Assembly: GCA_000467715.1 (NCBI GenBank)
Contig: AJFK01000847.1
Coordinates: forward strand, 1 to 44,844
From: Hysterium pulicare CBS 123377
Taxonomy: Eukaryota; Ascomycota; Dothideomycetes; Hysteriales; Hysteriaceae
Reading direction: 5' to 3'
Length of the DNA: 44,844 nucleotides
Each line of letters opens with the position of its first letter. Position 1 is the stretch's first letter. The notes under the pieces are model-generated. The model did no database searches. It worked only from the letters and a program-made list of their open reading frames with translations, and was not told where the DNA came from. Position numbers and translations under genes: made by a program. Shown here piece after piece: positions 2,707 to 25,668 of this stretch.

Positions 2707-5700
2707 ATGATCACGAACACAGTGTACGACCGCCTGCTCCGGCGGGAGCTTGGTGATGGCCGACGCTTCTCAAAGGTCCGAGGCCTTTATGGAGACCGGA
2801 AATGGGTTCAGGATATGGACATCGTGAACGAACTAGGAGGTCACTCAGGCTGTGTAAATGCTCTAAGGTACGTTTGCTTTTCTAGGCAATTAAATCTACG
2901 TTCGAACTTCCTAGCTAATGCTTTTCTTTAGTTGGTCTCGTTCAGGCCGACTGCTTGCTTCAGGCTCCGACGATCAGCATGTTAACATCCACTCCTACCT
3001 CCCGGAATCGTCCTCGTCCCAGTTCAACCTCACGACCACAATCCTTACGGGTCACTCACAAAACATATTCTCCGTAAAGTTTATGCCATACTCGAATGAC
3101 AGGACTATTGTCACTGCAGCTGGAGATGGCGAAGTCCGAATATTCGACATTGAGCATTCAGGACACTCCGGTGCACGTTCATCATCCGCGGCGAATACAG
3201 TAAGGCCCGGCAGGGTTGAGGTAGGGCTGCACGGTTTCCAAGATGGGGTCCGACTTATGACTGAGGGAGATTCAAATGCGAAAGTCTTTAGGTCACATAG
3301 CGACAGAGTTAAGAGGATAGTAACTGAGTCATCTCCATTCTTCTTCCTGACATGTTCAGAAGATGGTGAAGTCCGCCAGTGGGACACTCGGCAACCTTCC
3401 TCGGCGTATCCTCCACCACGAGATCACTATCCACGCTGGGCTTCATCGACTACTTCTGATACCGTACCGCCACCGCTCATTTCATACAAGCAGTATCATT
3501 TGGACCTCAACACCATCTCTTGTTCTCCTAGCCAGCCGCATTATATAGCACTTGGTGGCGCCCACCTCCATTGTTTCCTCCATGACCGGAGAATGCTCGG
3601 TAGGGACAGACTGGCTGAAAGGGGTGCACACCTTTCGTCTCCAGACAGTTGGAGTGATCAGGACGATGAACTCATGGGACAAGCTACGCAGTGCGTCCGC
3701 AAATTCGCGCCCAACGGCCAGAAGCGCATGCGACGAACTGACAATGGTCATATTACTGCTTGTAAGATTAGTGACGCGAACCCCAATGAAATCATTGTGA
3801 GCTGGTCCGGCGAATGGATCTACAGTTTTGATCTACTACGTAGCCCGGATGCTGGCGAAGAGAACGAAGAACAGGCCACCAACATGAGCAATGGTTCCGG
3901 GGGAGCCAAAGTTAAAGAATCAAAAATGCGTAAGCGTAAACGACTGATATCTGGTTCCACGACCTCTCAAGAGGGTTTGGACAGAGCAAGCTCTCGACAA
4001 CGTACAGAGAGCAGCCGAGGCTCGGAGTCTAGGGAGCGGATGGCTCTAATGGTTCAGTACGAGAATGGGCAAAGCGAAGAGATCCCTATTGAACCCTCCT
4101 CTTCTAGATCGCGCAGTCCGCTATCCGAACTCAGAGAATCCATTCTCTCTGACTCAGAACGACAGAGTTATCGAATTGCAAAAGCCACGGTGAAACTACG
4201 AAAATCTATGTTCACGTTAAGTCAGCCGAAGAGGACATCTACCCCAGATCCAACGGGGCATGTTACGTCGTTTACATCTGTTCTTGGATTTTCCGCCTCG
4301 ATTCTCCCGGAGATGGATGAGATTGCGCGAACATGGCGCTACCCTATCAATCCAAATGAAGTAGATGTTGCTTTCCAACGAAGACTCCGTGAAAATCGCG
4401 GAGCATCTAGACGCTTTGTCCAAGCTTCTGGCACACTTGCTAGAGTGCTGGGCGGTAAACTGAGAACTGGTGGCAACTCCGACGCTCTCACTTCGCAATA
4501 CTTTACCTCAATTCAACCTGCGCCTAGTGAATTGCCTCTGCAACGCAATGAACAATTTGGGTATGACTTTCTCAAGGCCATTCTGCTCTGGCTGGATAGT
4601 GGTATTGGAGCTTTGCTGGACGGCTTCACGAGTTCATCTCGTCCAAGCTCTCGCTTGCCGATTGAGAAAGACTCCAGTGTTGATGCGGTTGAGGACGTTC
4701 TCATTCCATATCTCCTCCGGCTCGCAAGCGACGATCCAATCATGGATGTAGACGCTTCGCGTTTTGAAATCGATGAAAATCGAGTTGTCTTTTCCTCGGA
4801 GCAGGCCGCCGTAATCGCTTTTGCAAGTGCATTGAAGATGCCTTTTGAGGACTTATCCAGTGCTGTCGTCCCTGCTCCAAGCTCGGACCAGGGAATTCCC
4901 AACCCGGGCAACGTTCACGCTCAGGACCGGAGGACGGCGCTTAGATATTGGGCATTCCGGGTCGGAAGAGGTGTGCTCATGAATGCTGGTAAGGGAGTCA
5001 ATTTTGCATTTGTGGATCGCTCCTTTGGTGGTATAGGTAAGGGGGATGCTGTTACCATGGCTGAAGAACGAGCGTTGAGAGCGAGACAAGAAGATATTGA
5101 CCCAAATGAGGAAGATGATGTGGTTGTCAATGCAGAATTAGTGAGCAGATCATGGGCAGAACTCGACGCTCAGAGAGAAGGCGAAATGGCGAGTGCGTCT
5201 GTCGAAGCCCCTGAACCAGATCGGTTGAGTGGAGGCAATGCGCCACTCACACCTCATCCGGAGCACTCCACCGTCATTTCTGATGATGAGGATGACTCAG
5301 ACGGTGATATTGATCCTGAAGATCTAGACGACGACGAGGACGAAGCCTCCGAGGATGGGGATGAGGGTACGGGCCCGGGAGCCCGTCTTCTGTGGCGCTC
5401 AGCTTTCGACCGCAGTAGATTTCGCGAGCGTGTAGAGTCAGACATACCGTGTTCACCACATACCAGACTATACCGTGGACACTGTAATGTCAAAACCGTC
5501 AAAGACGTCAATTTCTTTGGGTTACAAGATGAATATGTTGTTAGTGGTAGCGACTCTGGCCATGTCTTCATCTGGGACAGGGAGACAACCCAACTAGTCA
5601 ACATCCTTGAGGGCGATGGAGAAGTTGTCAACGTGGTCCAGGGTAAGTCTCCTGAATCATCGAGACTTTAAAATAACTTAGATCATTAATCACTTGCAGG

Positions 5701-6325
5701 CCATCCTTACGAGCCCATGCTCGCGGTCTCGGGCATTGACCATACCATTAAAGTCTTCTCACCTGATACTCGAGCACGTCAGAATGCGCGCCAAGGCGTT
5801 GGTATTCGCCCCTCTGATCCAGCGACCTTCTCCTCACTCGGCTGGAGTCGTTCAAGACGCCGTCATCAACCCTCCGCTAATCTATCTGAACCCGCGGTGC
5901 CTCAAAGTCGGGAGGATGAGGATAGCGAGAATGAGGACTCTGAGGAGCATATTGGACCTAATGGGCTCAGTAGCCGGAAACGCATGCATTTGGAGTACCA
6001 AATCACTAGCCAGAATGATGTGGATCGCAAAGGCGGAAGTAGGGACGCTTTCATCACAGTAAGTAATGCCGAGATTTTGCAACTATTTGCTGTTCTTTCA
6101 AATCAAACAACAATCTCGTAAACTAGAGTCTCTTCTAATGCATTTTGTTTCTTTCGTTGCAGAGGACGATGCTTGCTCAATTGGCGGAACGTTTTCACGC
6201 AAGTCAAGATGGAGATGGGGACGTGGAGAGCAATGGGCCAATTATGATTAGTGACGATTGCACCGTGAGTAATTACTTCTCCTTTGCTCAAATCAAACAT
6301 ACTCAATATGGAACAGGTTATGTGA
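2707..6325 (+). CDS. WD40-repeat protein, DCAF6/DCAF8-like (CUL4-DDB1 substrate receptor family)
   Basis: Five exons: 2707-2867, 2932-5642, 5700-6058, 6163-6264, 6317-6325. Every junction is GT-AG and the sum is 3,342 nt, giving 1,113 aa. The N-terminus has WD40 units (HSGCVNALSWSRSGRLLASGSDD; second unit at GHSQNIFSVKFMPYSNDRTI; third at HSDRVKRIVTESSPFFFLTC). A WDTR motif near residue 205 in EDGEVRQWDTR matches the DDB1-binding DWD box. A long charged, disordered middle follows, with an acidic run encoded at about 5275-5370. The last WD units are in LYRGHCNVKTVKDVNFFG and HPYEPMLAVSGIDHTIKVF. This split of N-terminal and C-terminal WD units around a large insert is typical of DCAF6 (NRIP) relatives. 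The family recruits substrates to the CUL4-DDB1 ubiquitin ligase; that role here is inferred. The last exon encodes only Val-Met-stop. It converges on DPM2 on the other strand. Confidence 0.85.
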
Positions 6326-7065: not shown

Positions 7066-7377
7066 ATTGAAGAGGGCGACTGAATGAGGGACGTGAAACT
7101 GATTCTGGCAGAGAAAATGCTGTCGACGACGGTGAAGGAAGCTTGTGGTGCTGAGGACAGGTAGGGGTGGTCCAGCCACCTCCGAACAGTTTCGCCGCCT
7201 CCGAAAGCTCCTCTCTAAACTTTCTTCAAGAACTTATCAACCTGCTCTCCTGCCACTCACTCCGTTATAACCAACGGTGTTAGCCGCCGATCTCGACACG
7301 AAACAAACCACCAGATCACCGATACTGTAGACTTCGAGTTTACTCTTGTGAAAGACCGGCGAAGCATATTCGTCGCC
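7066..7377. promoter_or_regulatory. Divergent promoter region between DPM2 and CWC22
   Basis: 312 bp separate the two start codons on opposite strands, so both promoters and 5' UTRs must lie here. I see no TATA box or clear factor site. Sharing of elements is inferred from spacing only. Confidence 0.55.
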
Positions 7378-9816
7378 ATGATGGAGGTCGCATCCGCCGT
7401 CCGCATCCCGTCTCCAGAACCCGAACCGTACCGGAAGCGCGATCGCTCGCCATCAGAGCCGGGGCCTTCGAAACGCTTTCGTGGCCGCTATGAACGGGAT
7501 GATGATGATGACCATCCTACGGAGCGCGTAAGGGAGCCTGTGCGTGAACCTGTTCGCCAAAAAGAAAATGGGATTAAACCGGATCCTGCAGACGATGACC
7601 CTCGGTTCAAGATGATCCAAAATGCATTCAGCGCGACCAGGAAAGCTCCCATAGATGACTCCAAGACTCGCGCAGGTGGAGCCTACATCCCTCCCGCCCG
7701 GCTGCGAGCCATGCAAGCCGCCATCACAGACAAGACGAGCCCGGAGTACCAGCGCATGGCTTGGGAAGCTTTGAAAAAATCAATACAGGGCATGATCAAC
7801 AAGTGCAATGTGGCGAATATCAAGATGATTGTTCCAGAGCTTTTTGGAGAAAATCTCGTTCGTGGTCGCGGCTTGTTCTGCAGGTCTATCATGAAGGCAC
7901 AAGCTGCCAGTTTACCGTTCACACCTATCTACGCCGCTATGGTCGCAATCGTCAACACCAAGCTCCCGCAATGTGGCGACCTTCTAGTCCGGCGCCTCAT
8001 CATCCAGTTCAGGAAAGCCTTCAAGAGAAATGATAAGGCCGTCGCTGTGGCATCTTCGACCTTTCTCGCACACCTTGCAAACCAACAAGTTATGCACGAG
8101 ACTACCATTGGACAGATACTGCTACTATTGCTCTACAAGCCCACCGATGACAGCGTAGAGATAGCGGTGGGAATCACAAGAGAAGTTGGGCAGTTTCTCG
8201 AAGAGATGAACCCTCCTATGGCGAATATTATTTTCGATCAGTTCAGGAGCATCTTGCACGAAGCGGACATTGACAAGAGAACACAGTACATGGTCGAGGT
8301 TTTGTTTCAGGTCAGGAAGGACAAATACAAGGACAACCCAGCGATCAAAGAGGAGCTTGATCTTGTTGAGGAGGAAGACCAAATCACTCATCGGGTGGGT
8401 CTGGACGACGAATTCACTGTCGAAGACGGTCTCAACATCTTCAAAGTTGACCCAGAATATGAGAACAACGAGGAAGCTTACAAGAAATTGAAGGCGGAGA
8501 TTCTTGGCGAAGCGGAAGGTAGCGACGAGGATGAATACACAGATGACTCATCAGAGGATGAAGAACAGAAGGAGGAACGGGCCCTAGAGATCAAGGACCA
8601 GACGAACGCTGATCTGGTTAACTTGCGACGAACAATATACTTAACCATCAAGAGCAGCGGAGGTTTCGAAGAATGTTGCCATAAACTTATGCGCATCAAC
8701 CTTCCCGTCGGACAAGAAAAGGAGCTCACGTCAATGGTTATCGAATGCGCCAGTCAAGAAAGGACATACGAGAAATTCTATGGCATGATCGGCGAGCGGT
8801 TCTGCAAGCTGAATCGTATGTGGTGCGACCTCTTCGAGAACAATTTCGCAGATTATTACGACACTATCCACCGCTATGAAACGAACCGCCTCCGGATCAT
8901 CGCGCAGTTCTTTGCGCATTTACTTGCATCAAATGGTATCGGATGGCATGTGCTGCTGTGCATCCGCATCAACGAGGAAGACACTACATCGAGTTCCCGT
9001 ATCTTCGTCAAAATTCTCTTCGAAGAGCTTATGCAGTCGTTGGGTCAGAAAACTCTCGTTGAGCGGTTGAAGGATCCCATGCTGCAGGAAAGTCTTGTTG
9101 GTATCTTCCCCAAAGATGACCAAAAGAACACTCGTTTCTCTATCAATTTCTTCACAGCCATCGGCATGGGTGTTCTTACGGAGGATATGCGTGAGTACCT
9201 CAAAAATAATGCACCGAAGCCAGCACCACTCCCAGAGCCAGAGAGCGAGTCGGAATCAGAGAGTGTATCATCCTACTCTTCATACTCTAGCCGTTCGCGC
9301 TCACGGTCGCTCTCTCGTACTCCACCCCGCCGCCGTCTTCCATCTCGTTCTCCCTCTCGATCCAAGTCTCCTGCTCCTCGGAGACGCCGCAGGCCCTCCT
9401 ATTCTGTCTCACGCTCTCCGTCCCCTGCATCTCGCCGGCGCCGGTACTCGTCGACCCGTTCGCCTTCCCCGCCTCCGCGTAGACGAAACCGCAGCCCTTC
9501 TGAATCCCTGTCGCGATCACCACCTCCGCGACGACGACGTTATTCAACAAGTCCATCACGCTCTCCTTCACCTCCACCACGCCGTCGTCGACAATCAACT
9601 ACTCCACCGCGTGAACGGAGACCTTCCCCGTCTCCTGCTCCTCGTCGCCGTAGTCCCCCTCGTCGACGACAACCGTCTACCAAATCGCCATCTCCACCTC
9701 CTCGCCGCGGTCGATACGAGTCAGACGCACCGGCTCGTTCTCCGCCACGTCGCAGGCGTACCTCTTCTTCTGCTTCGGCCTCGCCTCGCCCAAGGAGAAG
9801 GCGGAGTGAAACGTAG
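7378..9816 (+). CDS. CWC22: Pre-mRNA-splicing factor CWC22
   Basis: Intronless, 812 aa from the first ATG of an ATG-ATG pair (the second is at 7381); the frame extends further upstream only through a GTG. Residues about 124-345 form the MIF4G (HEAT) domain (motifs GLFCRSIMKAQAASLPFTPI and YAAMVAIVNTKLPQ), and an acidic linker (SDEDEYTDDSSEDEEQKEE) follows. The MA3 domain, about residues 412-560, has the family hallmarks ASQERTYEKFYGMIGERFCK and TTSSSRIFVKILFEEL. The C-terminal 190 residues are an RS/RP-rich tail with many SPSR and PPRRR blocks. CWC22 joins the Prp19-associated spliceosome, is needed for the first catalytic step, and in animals recruits eIF4A3 for exon-junction-complex deposition. 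The long RS tail is more like animal and filamentous-fungal versions than budding yeast. Confidence 0.93.
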   Translation: MMEVASAVRIPSPEPEPYRKRDRSPSEPGPSKRFRGRYERDDDDDHPTERVREPVREPVRQKENGIKPDPADDDPRFKMIQNAFSATRKAPIDDSKTRAGGAYIPPARLRAMQAAITDKTSPEYQRMAWEALKKSIQGMINKCNVANIKMIVPELFGENLVRGRGLFCRSIMKAQAASLPFTPIYAAMVAIVNTKLPQCGDLLVRRLIIQFRKAFKRNDKAVAVASSTFLAHLANQQVMHETTIGQILLLLLYKPTDDSVEIAVGITREVGQFLEEMNPPMANIIFDQFRSILHEADIDKRTQYMVEVLFQVRKDKYKDNPAIKEELDLVEEEDQITHRVGLDDEFTVEDGLNIFKVDPEYENNEEAYKKLKAEILGEAEGSDEDEYTDDSSEDEEQKEERALEIKDQTNADLVNLRRTIYLTIKSSGGFEECCHKLMRINLPVGQEKELTSMVIECASQERTYEKFYGMIGERFCKLNRMWCDLFENNFADYYDTIHRYETNRLRIIAQFFAHLLASNGIGWHVLLCIRINEEDTTSSSRIFVKILFEELMQSLGQKTLVERLKDPMLQESLVGIFPKDDQKNTRFSINFFTAIGMGVLTEDMREYLKNNAPKPAPLPEPESESESESVSSYSSYSSRSRSRSLSRTPPRRRLPSRSPSRSKSPAPRRRRRPSYSVSRSPSPASRRRRYSSTRSPSPPPRRRNRSPSESLSRSPPPRRRRYSTSPSRSPSPPPRRRRQSTTPPRERRPSPSPAPRRRSPPRRRQPSTKSPSPPPRRGRYESDAPARSPPRRRRTSSSASASPRPRRRRSET

Positions 9817-11127: not shown

Positions 11128-11145
11128 AAAAAAAAGCCAAAAAAA
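11128..11145 (-). terminator. Two T tracts 3' of the tRNA-Asp-like gene (Pol III type)
   Basis: On the minus strand, 13 nt after the discriminator base, there is a run of 7 T (11145-11139), then GGC, then 8 T (11135-11128). Pol III terminates at such T runs. Corresponding T tracts follow the two other 3'-complete copies in this window. Confidence 0.65.
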
Positions 11146-11157
11146 TTTTTGATGTAA

Positions 11158-11289
11158 CTCTCCCTCGGGGAATCGACTACTTTCAATTAGCATGATATAA
11201 ATTATCGATAAGACGGGCAACACTTACACCCCGGTCTCCCGCGCTTGTTGGTTGACAAGCGGAAATCATGACCACTAGACCAAGGAAGA
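11158..11289 (-). tRNA. tRNA-Asp(GUC)-like gene with a spliceosomal-type intron in the T loop
   Basis: Read on the minus strand from 11289. The acceptor stem TCTTCCT pairs perfectly with AGGGAGA (7 of 7, one G-U) and the discriminator is G73, the Asp identity base. The D arm carries the A box TGGTCTAGTGG. The anticodon stem TCCGC/GCGGG encloses TTGTCA with anticodon GTC. A 9-nt insert at the canonical 37/38 site (11244-11252, ACCAACAAG) can pair with the anticodon-loop strand like an ordinary tRNA intron. The T stem is CGGGG/CCCCG. Between T54 and T55 sits a 51-nt insert (11177-11227). It starts GTAAGTG, has a GCTAAT branch-like site and ends TAG. Removing both inserts leaves 72 nt and restores the B box GGTTCGATTCC. 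It may be a functional gene needing two splicing systems, or a structurally conserved pseudogene. Confidence 0.8.
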
Positions 11290-12211
11290 TTATTGAGCAG
11301 TTTGGAAATTTAATAATTATATATAGTAAGTTAATTTTTGTGGAGGCTGTCGCAGAGAACAACGTTCTGTTACTAAACTGTGGGTGCTTACTAACGTAAC
11401 AGACCTTAGCGACTGAATCACGATCTCCGCTCGATGTCCTCCGTGTTGCGGTAATCTGCGTGTAAGCCTACCATTGCAATCACCAACCATGTCTTGCTTC
11501 ATTCGTTGGCACTCGTGCAGCCAAAATCTTTCGCGCAAACAGGGCGAAGCAAGAGAAGAATGCTAGTATCTTCCTTCGTTCCTTTTACTGCACAGCTATT
11601 CCTTCAGCGCCGCAGGACAATATCGCAAGTCTCCCTTGTATCGATCAGGTTCACAATGGGTGTCATTATTTGTTACTACAGACTTTAAAGTCACCCAAGT
11701 CCGGGTAGATTATATTCTATAAGGTCCTTCTAAATGATCTTAAGGCTGGCAACTTGCTTCAACGCCTTGTACCGAGGTTAAATTTGCTTCACATGCTGTT
11801 GGAAAAAGAAGGTGGTAGGCGTTGGCCTATCTAAAAACGACGAATTATGACACCCCCTGTGGTTGACGCCAGCTTTCACCAGCAAGGACACCGCAACGAT
11901 TCACGCATCTCTTATATTTATACCTTCCCATCGCCTAGGACAACTCTGATGACGAAATGGCGGAAGAGTTGGATAGTGGGAGCGATGGGGATATTTGTTT
12001 ACGCTGTAAATCATCAGGGGCAGCATTTGACTCTATACGGCCCCCAAAATATAACTGTAGTAATATTTGCCAGGGGTAGCACTGTGGATCTAGGTACGGT
12101 AAAAACTTTTGACAAGAAATCTGATTCAGCGGAGTTTAGTTTAAATGGTTGCAGTACTAGTTTAGTGCGTGGAACTATGGTACGCACTGCAATGCATACC
12201 TTCAAGACATT
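11290..12211. other. Region between two tRNA-Asp-like copies; decayed coding traces
   Basis: AT-rich at the left. Around 11938-12040 one plus frame reads like protein (MAEELDSGSDGDICLRCKSSG) but soon runs into several stops, so any gene here is decayed. The 141-codon frame at 11847-12272 has no recognisable domain and runs into the duplicated tRNA segment, so I do not call it. Confidence 0.35.
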
Positions 12212-12220
12212 AAAAAAAAA
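12212..12220 (-). terminator. T tract 3' of the truncated tRNA-Asp copy
   Basis: Nine T on the minus strand, beginning 10 nt after the equivalent of the discriminator base at 12230. Same position and type as in the other copies. Confidence 0.5.
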
Positions 12221-12229
12221 TGTGAGTAA

Positions 12230-12334
12230 CTCTCCCTCGGGGAATCGACTACTTTCAATTAGCATGATATAAATTATCGATAAGACGGGCAACACTTACA
12301 CCCCGGTCTCCCGCGCTTGTTGGATGGCAAGCGG
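12230..12334 (-). pseudogene. 5'-truncated tRNA-Asp copy retaining the T-loop intron
   Basis: Nearly identical to 11158-11262 with a constant offset of 1,072 bp. The acceptor 3' strand, T arm, 51-nt GTAAGT...TAG intron (12249-12299) and variable arm are all present. The homology stops in the anticodon stem: the D arm and 5' acceptor strand are missing, and the anticodon triplet reads GCC instead of GTC. The short 37/38 insert is TCCAACAAG. It lies 33 bp beyond the stop codon of the phosphotransferase-like gene, on the same strand, so it may sit in that gene's 3' UTR. Confidence 0.75.
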
Positions 12335-16790: not shown

Positions 16791-18269
16791 CTCAGCGTGA
16801 TAAAGTAGATCCAAGTTCCATGGGTTATGGGTAGGTTAAAGCACCGCAGTTTTGGAGCGAGCCAGATGGAACTTGAAGCTCCGTTCATGAGGCCCTATCC
16901 TCCCTGGCCATCCCGTCCATCCCGTCCATCCCGTTCGATTTCTGTCAGACTCTTGGGTTTATGCAGCAATACGATTTGGCTTATGCTCGGCCCGCATACA
17001 CAGCTCATCTCGAGCTACTTTGTGGCGTTACTTGCTCTGCAGAGCGACATGCTGGCTAGGTGCACAGCATCATTAGCGGACACAAATACTTCTGTTCCCA
17101 CCTGCACATATCACGCGTGCATAAAATATGCGGAATATTTCTGAATGCAAGACTTGGGTGATCCCCATGCAGCTCTTTCGTTCCAATTCTTACTAATGCA
17201 GTGATTATGCATTAATCTAGCAGAGAAAAGCAGCTTGCATTGTGTCTACACGCCGCCTAACCACTCCGCCAAACATGATCCCTGGTCGGTATGCTCGAAA
17301 ATATGCTTGCACCGCGCATTCCACGCTGCGTCTCGCTTGAATTCCAAGTCAATGACCTGTTTACAGAGGCCACACTAAAACTGGATTTGTCCGTTACTAC
17401 CCAAATGACCTGACCTTGCTTGCTCTTCGAGTTTTTCTGTGGGAATCTGGTGGTCTTGTAAATGTGATATGATACAGTAAAAAACCGTGTAGGTTGGCCG
17501 CGAGCTGCCGACACAAATCATACACAGCCGGCGCTCAGGCATGAAGTGTTGTGTGTGTTGGTGCCGCTTCCAGTCTTCTTTAGTGTCAAATCCTGCATTG
17601 CACTCTTGATAAAGACAGGGCCATTCGTGTCAAGCACTAAAGGTTATTTTGATATTCGAGGGAGTAGAAGTCTGCGCCTAAAAGGTGAGCGTCTATGTGA
17701 GACCTTTAGGTTCTGGGGACATCACATTATTGCTTTGATAGGAAGGATTGCTTATCTTTTAGAGGTTTTGTTCGATGTTCGAAACGTGAATAGAGAAGAG
17801 ACGAAACACTTGCTATTTATGGTGATGGCTGGGAAAGCGCTGGCTCGAATAGCTCGGCAATGAATTCATAGCGGATGTGTATGCATGAAGTGGCTGAGTG
17901 CCACGCCACCACTCTCTACGCGACTGGATCGAAGCACGGGTCGTAAGCTTGGATCTAGAGGGGGGACTGCATGAGGATGGGTAGGATGAGGAGACTGGAG
18001 GATAGATCTGCGATGTATGGCGACAAGGCCGCCTGAGGATAAGCTGAGGGGGCGGGGAAGCGGGAGGTCGGGCCAGAGGAGTAGGATGAGGCGGAACGAT
18101 TGGGCCGTTCTAGAAGGCTACAGCGAAGCAAGACAAATGATTGATTGCAACAGTTACAGAGTCGCAATACGAGTATAGTTACATTTTCCATTCTTCACAA
18201 GCCTGTAAACTTGTCTTGGAGGTAGACATGTTACCGTCTCTTGGTTCCTCTCGCATCTTTATACGCGTG
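16791..18269. other. No supported gene; one minisatellite
   Basis: Frames at 16827-17144, 17257-17514 and 17546-17863 are about 100 codons or fewer with no domain I recognise. The last has hydrophobic stretches (HHIIALIGRIAYLLEVLF) but no support. A 9-bp tandem repeat is present at 16908-16934. Confidence 0.4.
16908..16934. repeat. 9-bp tandem repeat CCATCCCGT x3
   Basis: Three exact copies. A compositionally similar GGACGCCC-type short repeat occurs at about 22538-22570. Confidence 0.8.
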
Positions 18270-24878: not shown

Positions 24879-24887
24879 AAAAAAAAA
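24879..24887 (-). terminator. T tract 3' of the three-intron tRNA-Asp gene
   Basis: Nine T on the minus strand, starting five nt beyond the discriminator base at 24892, the expected place and sequence for Pol III termination. Confidence 0.65.
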
Positions 24888-24891
24888 TTTG

Positions 24892-25132
24892 CTCTCCGAC
24901 GGGGAATCGACTATTCCAAATTAACAAATTGTATTCGGAGACAAGATAATGTGACTTACACCCCGGTCTCCCGCGCTTGTGAAGATTGACAAGCGGAAAC
25001 TGTTTTCATTTAGACGAAGAATACTAGTAATTATTGGGTAGCAACTTACTCATGACCACTCTAAGAAAATTGTTAGAATATTTTTTCCACCGCTTTGCGA
25101 TAGGACGGTTGTAACTTACAGACCATCGAAGA
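24892..25132 (-). tRNA. tRNA-Asp(GUC)-like gene split by three GT-AG introns plus a 37/38 intron
   Basis: Read on the minus strand from 25132. The acceptor 5' strand is TCTTCGA, followed by TGGTCT. Intron 1 (25119-25061, 59 nt: GTAAGTT, TCTAACA branch, TTTTCTTAG) lies between T13 and A14. Then AGTGGTCATGA. Intron 2 (25049-25000, 50 nt: GTAAGTT, TCTAAAT, AAAACAG) lies between A24 and T25. Then TTTCCGCTTGTCA with anticodon GTC, and an 11-nt insert at 37/38 (24986-24976, ATCTTCACAAG). Then CGCGGGAGACCGGGGT. Intron 3 (24959-24911, 49 nt: GTAAGTC, GTTAAT, GAATAG) lies between T54 and T55. Then TCGATTCCCCG and the acceptor 3' strand TCGGAGA with G73. The acceptor pairs 7 of 7. Excision leaves exactly 72 nt, differing from the 11158-11289 gene only by two swapped base pairs. 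The internal A and B boxes are both interrupted in the DNA. Confidence 0.85.
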
Positions 25133-25668
25133 TTACATTGCAAGAAATAGTTATTATTTTGTATATGATCCCAAAATAAAATTAAATCGGTCCCTTCAAC
25201 CATGTTGGCAGATGGCTCAAGCGAGGACCAACAGCTATAATTTAATCATATGTCCGATTCTGTGTGGAGTCAATGTGTCCCGCGACCTATGAACTAGGGT
25301 GAAATCGCTTCTCACGCAAGCAACAGTTTCATTCACCCTTCATTTCTAAGCTAATCAATTTTATCTCAAGTCAAATACTTTGTTGTATTCCTACAAAGTT
25401 CTTATACATGCCACATACGACACCCTTTCCCGTCTAAAGAACTCGATCAAGTGAAATTGCTAACTGGCGGAAGTCAACATGTACTAGCTAACGCCAAGTT
25501 TTCTCTCCCTTTCAGTTCATAACATCTCGAAGACCTAACTCAAAAAAGCTGTCATAAAAAAAATCAACATAGTCTAACGTCAAAACCGCCTCCTTCAAAA
25601 CTAGACCCAACATTCTATAGCTAAGTGATTCTGTATGCCATTCCCCGACTACTTAAAGGACAAGGGAC
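25133..25668. other. AT-rich spacer
   Basis: No gene. It lies between the tRNA-Asp gene and the stop codon of the recombinase-like gene, both on the minus strand. Confidence 0.45.

Follow-up and report, generated by a model that had tools for sequence, protein, structure and literature searches.

Introns of tRNA genes and introns of mRNA genes are treated as separate systems, and the spliceosome is not known to act on tRNAs. Among genes transcribed by RNA polymerase III (Pol III), mRNA-type introns occur in the U6 snRNA genes of some yeasts. In the rRNA genes of ascomycetes spliceosomal introns are established (Cubero 2000; Bhattacharya 2000; via the available extracts of PMC11889510 and PMC8527467), and a lichen rDNA intron of 57 bp is spliced by yeast out of Pol I rRNA (extract of PMC8527467). 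Ectopic introns, several per tRNA gene and outside position 37/38, are described for Cyanidioschyzon merolae, archaea and Guillardia theta (extract of PMC3978253), and a 2026 review, in its available part, classes tRNA splicing as spliceosome-independent (PMC13149111). Among the matches listed for the open-licence literature, and within their available text, none describes tRNA genes with spliceosomal introns, nor do the available extracts of PMC12730881, PMC11782384, PMC3400036, PMC4494063, PMC4035089 and PMC2770079 report any.

The tRNA-Asp(GUC) gene considered here, gene A, lies in a window of 44,844 nt, the whole stretch of DNA that was analysed, which is contig C530 of the searched assembly of 37,200,777 bases in 596 contigs. 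The sequence-only reading had assembled a 72-nt tRNA from minus-strand segments separated by inserts of 59, 50 and 49 nt at 13/14, 24/25 and 54/55, and this architecture of three GT-AG inserts plus a 37/38 intron is confirmed: a solver supplied with GT, AG, an insert length of 35-110, the tRNA stems and the conserved bases re-derived it as the sole solution at score >=24, called tRNA-Asp with the anticodon GTC (Table 1). The exons less the 11-nt intron amount to 72 nt, and the 20 stem pairs checked comprise 17 Watson-Crick and three G-U pairs with no mismatch. Direct reading bears out that every insert starts with GTAAGT and ends in AG, and solver and ARAGORN (i(38,11)) agree that the 11-nt insert is the ordinary tRNA intron; the branch-like element that had been claimed for all three inserts holds in full for insert 1, the only one within gene A with a perfect CTRAY, whereas inserts 2 and 3 match it at four of five positions.

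Like the ascomycete rRNA introns, the tRNA inserts are short, of mRNA type and ectopic in a gene for a non-coding RNA, and their removal would likewise be from a non-Pol II transcript, as far as the available extracts on the rRNA introns go. Unlike those Pol I cases, they sit in tRNA genes, as many as three to a gene, inside RNAs some 72 nt long, and adjoin an endonuclease-type intron. With the yeast U6 introns they share the spliceosomal type in a Pol III gene, but the gene family is another one, at least 16 tRNA genes being concerned here, whereas five U6 matches in the assembly are contiguous without an insert (47 candidates scored, so that interrupted copies would be missed). Several inserts per tRNA gene outside 37/38 are a feature in common with C. 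merolae, archaea and G. theta; those introns whose mechanism is defined use a bulge-helix-bulge (BHB) fold and the endonuclease (extract of PMC3978253), in contrast to the splice and branch signals, with no archaeal-type BHB, that are seen here. From the ordinary nuclear 37/38 introns the GT-AG inserts differ in position, length and signals.

Table 1. Positions of the tRNA-Asp genes, their exons, inserts and flanking elements, and of the mRNA introns used for comparison, in the 44,844-nt window.
Feature	Position	Strand	Basis
tRNA-Asp(GUC) gene A, four exons	24892..25132	minus	direct reading and independent solver
Gene A exon 1, 13 nt	25132-25120	minus	direct reading
Gene A GT-AG insert 1, 59 nt, 13/14, GTAAGT..CTAAC..TTAG	25061..25119	minus	solver
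Gene A exon 2, 11 nt	25060-25050	minus	direct reading
Gene A GT-AG insert 2, 50 nt, 24/25, GTAAGT..CTAAA..ACAG	25000..25049	minus	solver
Gene A exon 3, 40 nt including the 11-nt intron	24999-24960	minus	direct reading
Gene A ordinary 37/38 tRNA intron, 11 nt	24976..24986	minus	solver, ARAGORN i(38,11)
Gene A GT-AG insert 3, 49 nt, 54/55, GTAAGT..TTAAT..ATAG	24911..24959	minus	solver
Gene A exon 4, 19 nt	24910-24892	minus	direct reading
T9 run directly downstream of gene A, Pol III terminator-like	24879..24887	minus	
AT-rich TATA-like stretch CATATACAAAATA upstream of gene A, without TATAW match	25155..25167	minus	
tRNA-Asp(GUC) gene B, one GT-AG insert and 9-nt 37/38 intron	11158..11289	minus	solver, ARAGORN
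Gene B GT-AG insert, 51 nt, 54/55, GTAAGT..CTAAT..GTAG	11177..11227	minus	solver
Gene B ordinary 37/38 intron, 9 nt	11244..11252	minus	solver, ARAGORN
T7 run downstream of gene B	11139..11145	minus	
TATATATAA upstream of gene B	11317..11325	minus	
Truncated third Asp copy, 3' part only, anticodon position GCC, pseudogene-like	12212..12334	minus	
WD40 gene mRNA intron, 64 nt, GTACGT..GCTAAT..TTAG	2868..2931	plus	
WD40 gene mRNA intron, 57 nt, GTAAGT..GCAG, without CTRAY	5643..5699	plus	
WD40 gene mRNA intron, 104 nt, GTAAGT..TCTAAT..GCAG	6059..6162	plus	

A DNA search matched the gene A locus to a second tRNA-Asp(GUC) gene in the same window, gene B, which has the 54/55 site in common with gene A and no insert at 13/14 or 24/25; on alignment the two 54/55 inserts are similar scarcely beyond the splice signals. 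With the GT-AG inserts omitted, ARAGORN gives tRNA-Asp(gtc) for both genes, and each folds into a cloverleaf with a GUC anticodon and 20/20 pairs. Their acceptor stems, TCTTCGA/TCGGAGA in gene A and TCTTCCT/AGGGAGA in gene B, have changed on both sides of the pairs 6-67 and 7-66 with the pairing kept. These changes are compensatory, and we infer from the sequences that genes A and B are functional tRNA-Asp(GUC) genes. The truncated third copy is near-identical to gene B in its 3' part, the same 54/55 insert included, with no 5' half seen and no solver solution, and its flanks diverge right past the gene end, which suggests a recent duplication. Intact uninterrupted Asp(GUC) genes, which the sequence-only reading had named as an argument for a pseudogene, did not appear: an Asp anticodon-arm pattern with halves 0-30 nt apart, which copies differing in its 18 bases would escape, has two matches assembly-wide, genes A and B, and the tRNA family search returned two weak uninterrupted Asp-like matches with a GTC-like anticodon, L019 (42.7 bits) and L020 (32.8 bits). 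For L019 there is no solver solution, no clear ARAGORN anticodon and no T-run seen just downstream, and for L020 ARAGORN reports Asp(gtc) and an intron of 3 nt, while the solver gives it a score of 26.4 with a different anticodon; both are judged degenerate.

What had first been read as a single unusual gene is real but belongs to a genome-wide class, as searches of the assembly, with the candidate loci parsed by the solver, uncovered 14 more interrupted genes beyond Asp A and Asp B. Altogether 16 interrupted genes with 26 GT-AG inserts stand beside 23 uninterrupted ones, both counts being lower bounds. Apart from the two Asp genes (Table 1), single inserts are found in Gly-TCC (46/48), Ala-CGC (25/26), Arg-ACG (31/32), Ile-AAT (21/22), Trp-CCA (20/21) and Lys-TTT (53/54), and two inserts each in Thr-TGT (26/27, 51/52), Val-CAC (11/12, 24/25), Phe-GAA on C318 (11/12, 54/55), Asn-GTT (18/19, 54/55), Phe-GAA on C51 (15/16, 50/51), Cys-GCA (24/25, 47/48), Leu-TAA (20/20a, 25/26) and Leu-CAA (22/23, 53/54). 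For Cys-GCA the two-insert parse was chosen, a one-insert parse with a long variable arm scoring 1.2 points higher; in the final gene table a long variable arm was permitted for Leu and Ser only. Introns at 37/38 are also present in 13 of the 16 interrupted genes, and none of the 26 GT-AG inserts lies at that position. A Phe anticodon-arm pattern has two matches assembly-wide, both in interrupted genes; this census covered Asp and Phe, the Asn and Trp isotypes being given by their own parse alone. With the shared Asp 54/55 entered once, nine coincidences of insert position occur among 25 insertions against 5.2 expected (p ~0.08), and site-specific insertion is not claimed. An absence of introns from the acceptor stem is not claimed either, because the solver barred introns in the first 8 nt.

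The 23 uninterrupted genes are the 19 of the final gene table together with L021, L022, L026 and L088, which add Ala-TGC, His-GTG and Gly-GCC (ARAGORN) and Met-CAT (solver); L018, L019 and L020 are absent from that table. An interrupted parse of L021 was rejected as a solver artefact, ARAGORN finding an uninterrupted Ala gene there, L089 was dropped with a score of 24.2, and L103 was excluded as ambiguous. In the loci examined no gene was located for initiator Met, Pro, Thr-AGT, Ile-TAT and several Leu and Arg isotypes.

Candidates came from a tRNA family search, from T-arm patterns naming no intron and from one pattern for a 54/55 insert, and 68 stretches were examined, 20 of them from the family search and 48 picked by eye as tRNA-like from the patterns. 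The family search gave at least 20 matches with 63 of 1229 candidates scored, so that its silence on a gene means little. The 54/55-insert pattern had 25 matches against 22 for its reversed control, three of them in the window, and four were picked; the first T-arm pattern had 130 against 67 (16 picked among the matches listed), the second 51 against 25 (eight more picked) and the third 94 against 67 (20 picked). Judged against the reversed patterns, most pattern matches are due to chance. These patterns are blind to introns within 55-62. Asp A, Asp B, Phe on C318 and Asn fit the pattern with the GT donor, and the other 12 of the 16 genes were found without naming a donor; in Lys-TTT and Leu-CAA, with their 53/54 inserts, the AG of the T-arm pattern coincides with the insert end, so that the acceptor was selected for.

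Gene A exceeds what the controls yield by chance and belongs to a class that numbers 16 genes or more. Run over the entire window on both strands, in 650-base tiles that overlap, the solver returns two genes at score >=24, gene A at 25.3 and gene B at 29.3, while the maximum among 4000 dinucleotide shuffles (2000 per Asp locus) is 22.5 and never 25. Twenty non-tRNA loci of about 3 kb each, chance matches taken from the 25 automatic loci of the 54/55-insert pattern, give no parse at score >=24 on either strand. Neither ARAGORN with the bacterial code nor Rfam at its gathering score finds a tRNA in the window. GT and AG are presupposed by the solver, an assumption that was tested with 256 donor/acceptor dinucleotide rules on 50 loci, the 48 pattern-picked stretches and the two Asp genes, a locus counting as solved at a score of >=27 and more than one point above any uninterrupted parse. 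GT..AG solves 15 loci and the runner-up GT..TA four, with a mean of 0.7 loci per rule and 140 rules that solve none. These 15 loci differ from the list of 16 genes in that L103 is included and gene A and L016 are not; gene A stays below 27 (25.3) because of its three insert penalties, and L016 lies outside the locus set.

The spliceosomal-type reading first proposed for the three inserts of gene A gains support from hallmarks throughout the 26 inserts of the 16 genes, besides the lead of GT..AG over the 255 other rules. All 26 begin with GTNNGT, half of them (13) with GTAAGT, and GTRNGT is found in 22 compared with a mean of 0.55 in shuffles. The 3' ends are TAG in 11, CAG in 11 and AAG in four (YAG 22/26). 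A CTRAY near the 3' end is present in 21 inserts (shuffle mean 4.7, maximum 11), its A lying 9-14 nt before the end in all 21, and the five inserts without a perfect branch motif are inserts 2 and 3 of gene A and three others. Lengths range from 47 to 86 nt, with 24 inserts at 47-59 and the remaining two at 78 and 86. The yardstick for mRNA introns is a WD40 gene in the window (protein 2918-5671, closest match Lepidopterella palustris, 73%), of which three introns (57, 64 and 104 nt; n=3, one gene) were fixed by homology and a continuous reading frame; the tRNA inserts are similar to them in size, and two of these mRNA introns contain a CTAAT whose A, counted by hand, lies 13 and 24 nt before the end. 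A MIF4G/MA3 protein in the window (7348-9816) is CWC22-like, its first named matches being Delitschia (69% identity), Zopfia (77%) and Lentithecium (71%), and going by the homology of these proteins the host is placed among the Dothideomycetes. The inserts thus combine what is expected of U2-type introns, GT/AG with a donor consensus, a branch motif at a set distance and a size like that of mRNA introns.

A rival reading, on which the inserts are ectopic tRNA introns and the tRNA splicing endonuclease removes them at BHB folds as in C. merolae and archaea, has a basis in the multiple odd-position introns of C. merolae nuclear tRNA genes and in the ectopic introns of the G. theta nucleomorph, many of which are without a defined BHB (extract of PMC3978253). 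Cutting by the endonuclease gives, however, no reason for GTNNGT, CTRAY and AG. The sequence-only reading had pointed to BHB folds at all junctions as an argument for the endonuclease, and no archaeal-type signal emerged: on a self-devised score the 26 junction pairs reach at most 8/10 and none attains 9 or 10, with a mean of 6.23 versus 5.77 at random sites, 1.8% of which reach >=9; the ordinary 37/38 introns (29, mean 6.21) do not stand out on this score either, which therefore excludes the archaeal BHB type only. We reject this explanation as highly improbable.

An equally slim chance is given to the view that the interrupted genes are pseudogenes with insertions while other copies serve translation, which is likewise rejected. 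The truncated Asp copy, the weak or odd tRNA-like sequences L019, L020, L077 and L096 and a possibly incomplete assembly speak for it; against it stand the preserved tRNA structures. With the inserts omitted, 317 of 320 stem pairs form in the interrupted genes (293 Watson-Crick, 24 G-U), the three mismatches sitting in Trp, Lys and Cys, and pairs covary between the Asp copies; in the 19 uninterrupted genes all 380 of 380 form (357 Watson-Crick, 23 G-U, none mismatched). The mean solver score after removal is 32.39 (n=16) compared with 32.67 for uninterrupted genes (n=19). ARAGORN recognizes a tRNA in 16/16 spliced sequences and the own isotype in 13, disagreeing for Thr, Asn and Trp, but in the unspliced sequences a tRNA in 6/16 and the own anticodon in three (Gly, Ala, Arg). 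Furthermore, both Asp and both Phe anticodon arms that were matched belong to interrupted genes, and random insertions would neither share splice signals nor be exactly removable.

Introner-like elements are present in Dothideomycetes. An origin of the inserts from a single mobile introner family, or from group I or II introns in degenerate form, is hardly credible and is rejected as well, since, despite very short putative group I introns of 56-81 nt in fungal rDNA (extract of PMC3160393) and introner-like elements known in fungi (extract of PMC11889510), no Rfam family is found at gathering score in the window, the inserts measure only 47-86 nt, and BLASTN among the 26 yields just two pairwise matches, of 17 nt and 12 nt, with little shared beyond the splice signals.

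We favour, at a probability of about 0.88, the reading that the inserts are U2-type spliceosomal introns in working nuclear tRNA genes, as a genome-wide class. Judged by sequence features, the spliceosome would be the remaining candidate with the right signals for insert removal. It is also probable that spliceosomal introns have invaded the nuclear tRNA set and that both Asp, both Phe and the sole Asn, Cys and Trp genes found need the spliceosome to act on Pol III transcripts, in most cases before the endonuclease takes out an ordinary intron.

A run of at least five T starts 0-21 nt past the gene in 16/16 interrupted and 0-23 nt past it in 19/19 uninterrupted genes, compared with 10.5% of positions drawn at random from these loci, and TATAW occurs within 60 nt upstream in 11/16 and 12/19, respectively. 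If the A box is placed at 8-19 and the B box at 52-62, the inserts cut the A box in five genes, the B box in six and both in three, gene A included. Precedents for an upstream TATA-dependent mode of Pol III are discussed in the available extract of PMC3978253. Two introns (Phe on C318 and Leu-CAA) contain T5 and T6 runs that could stop Pol III, and a depletion of T-runs in the inserts was not found (two observed against 2.04 in shuffles). As for other genes, seven 5S rRNA matches above the cut-off are contiguous without an insert (47 candidates scored, so that interrupted copies would be missed), which together with the contiguous U6 matches points, within the genes covered, to tRNA genes as the target of the invasion; a short primer-site pattern for 18S rDNA has no match in the assembly.

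Under the spliceosomal reading, Pol III would transcribe from the upstream TATA-like element to the T-run just past the gene, and the spliceosome, recognizing GTNNGT and AG together with a CTRAY-like branch site in the pre-tRNA, would remove the GT-AG introns in the nucleus. The T-arm and D-arm could fold only after this removal, and trimming of the 5' and 3' ends would come next, followed presumably by the excision of the 37/38 intron by tRNA endonuclease and ligase. As 13 of the 16 genes also carry a 37/38 intron, one and the same transcript would be processed by two splicing systems.

If this holds true, a fungus with both kinds of intron in its tRNA genes breaks the division between tRNA and mRNA splicing, translation depends directly on the spliceosome through tRNA supply, several tRNA genes are transcribed without intact internal promoter boxes, and tRNA maturation follows a new order with splicing ahead of end trimming. 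The genes would offer a test bed for the action of the spliceosome on Pol III transcripts and for the entry of introns into genes without a reading frame. As ARAGORN misses or misreads most of the interrupted genes in unspliced form, other genomes may hide such genes and look tRNA-poor.

Several further loci deserve mention in their own right. L103 (C91:60850-61380) is Leu-like. Its insert near 14/15, GTATGT..CTAAC..AAAAG, is clear, the borders of a second insert could not be fixed, and the locus is possibly a 17th interrupted gene or a pseudogene. In L057 (C19:17750-18600) a second T-arm-like exon, GGTTCGATTCCACTAGTAGAC, lies at about 17860-17905 on the minus strand past the tRNA-Thr(TGT) gene and its T-run, with CTAAC..TTTAG in front, and resembles an orphan last exon. 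L019 (C129), L020 (C493), L077 (C493), L089/L018 (C95) and L096 (C596) are tRNA-like, but their anticodon loops are odd or their stems weak; they may be pseudogenes, tRNA-derived elements or tRNAs that carry further unusual introns. L071 (C52) and L072 (C121) are related tRNA-like stretches with 3' flanks in common (GGTTCGATTCCCGCACCTACCCCC) and look like a dispersed tRNA-derived repeat. L099 (C549) and L092 (C411), for which the solver did not obtain a complete tRNA parse, each combine an upstream TATA, a sequence resembling a 3' splice site of the CTAAC type and, ahead of a T-run, a T-arm-like end, and are candidates for more heavily interrupted genes.
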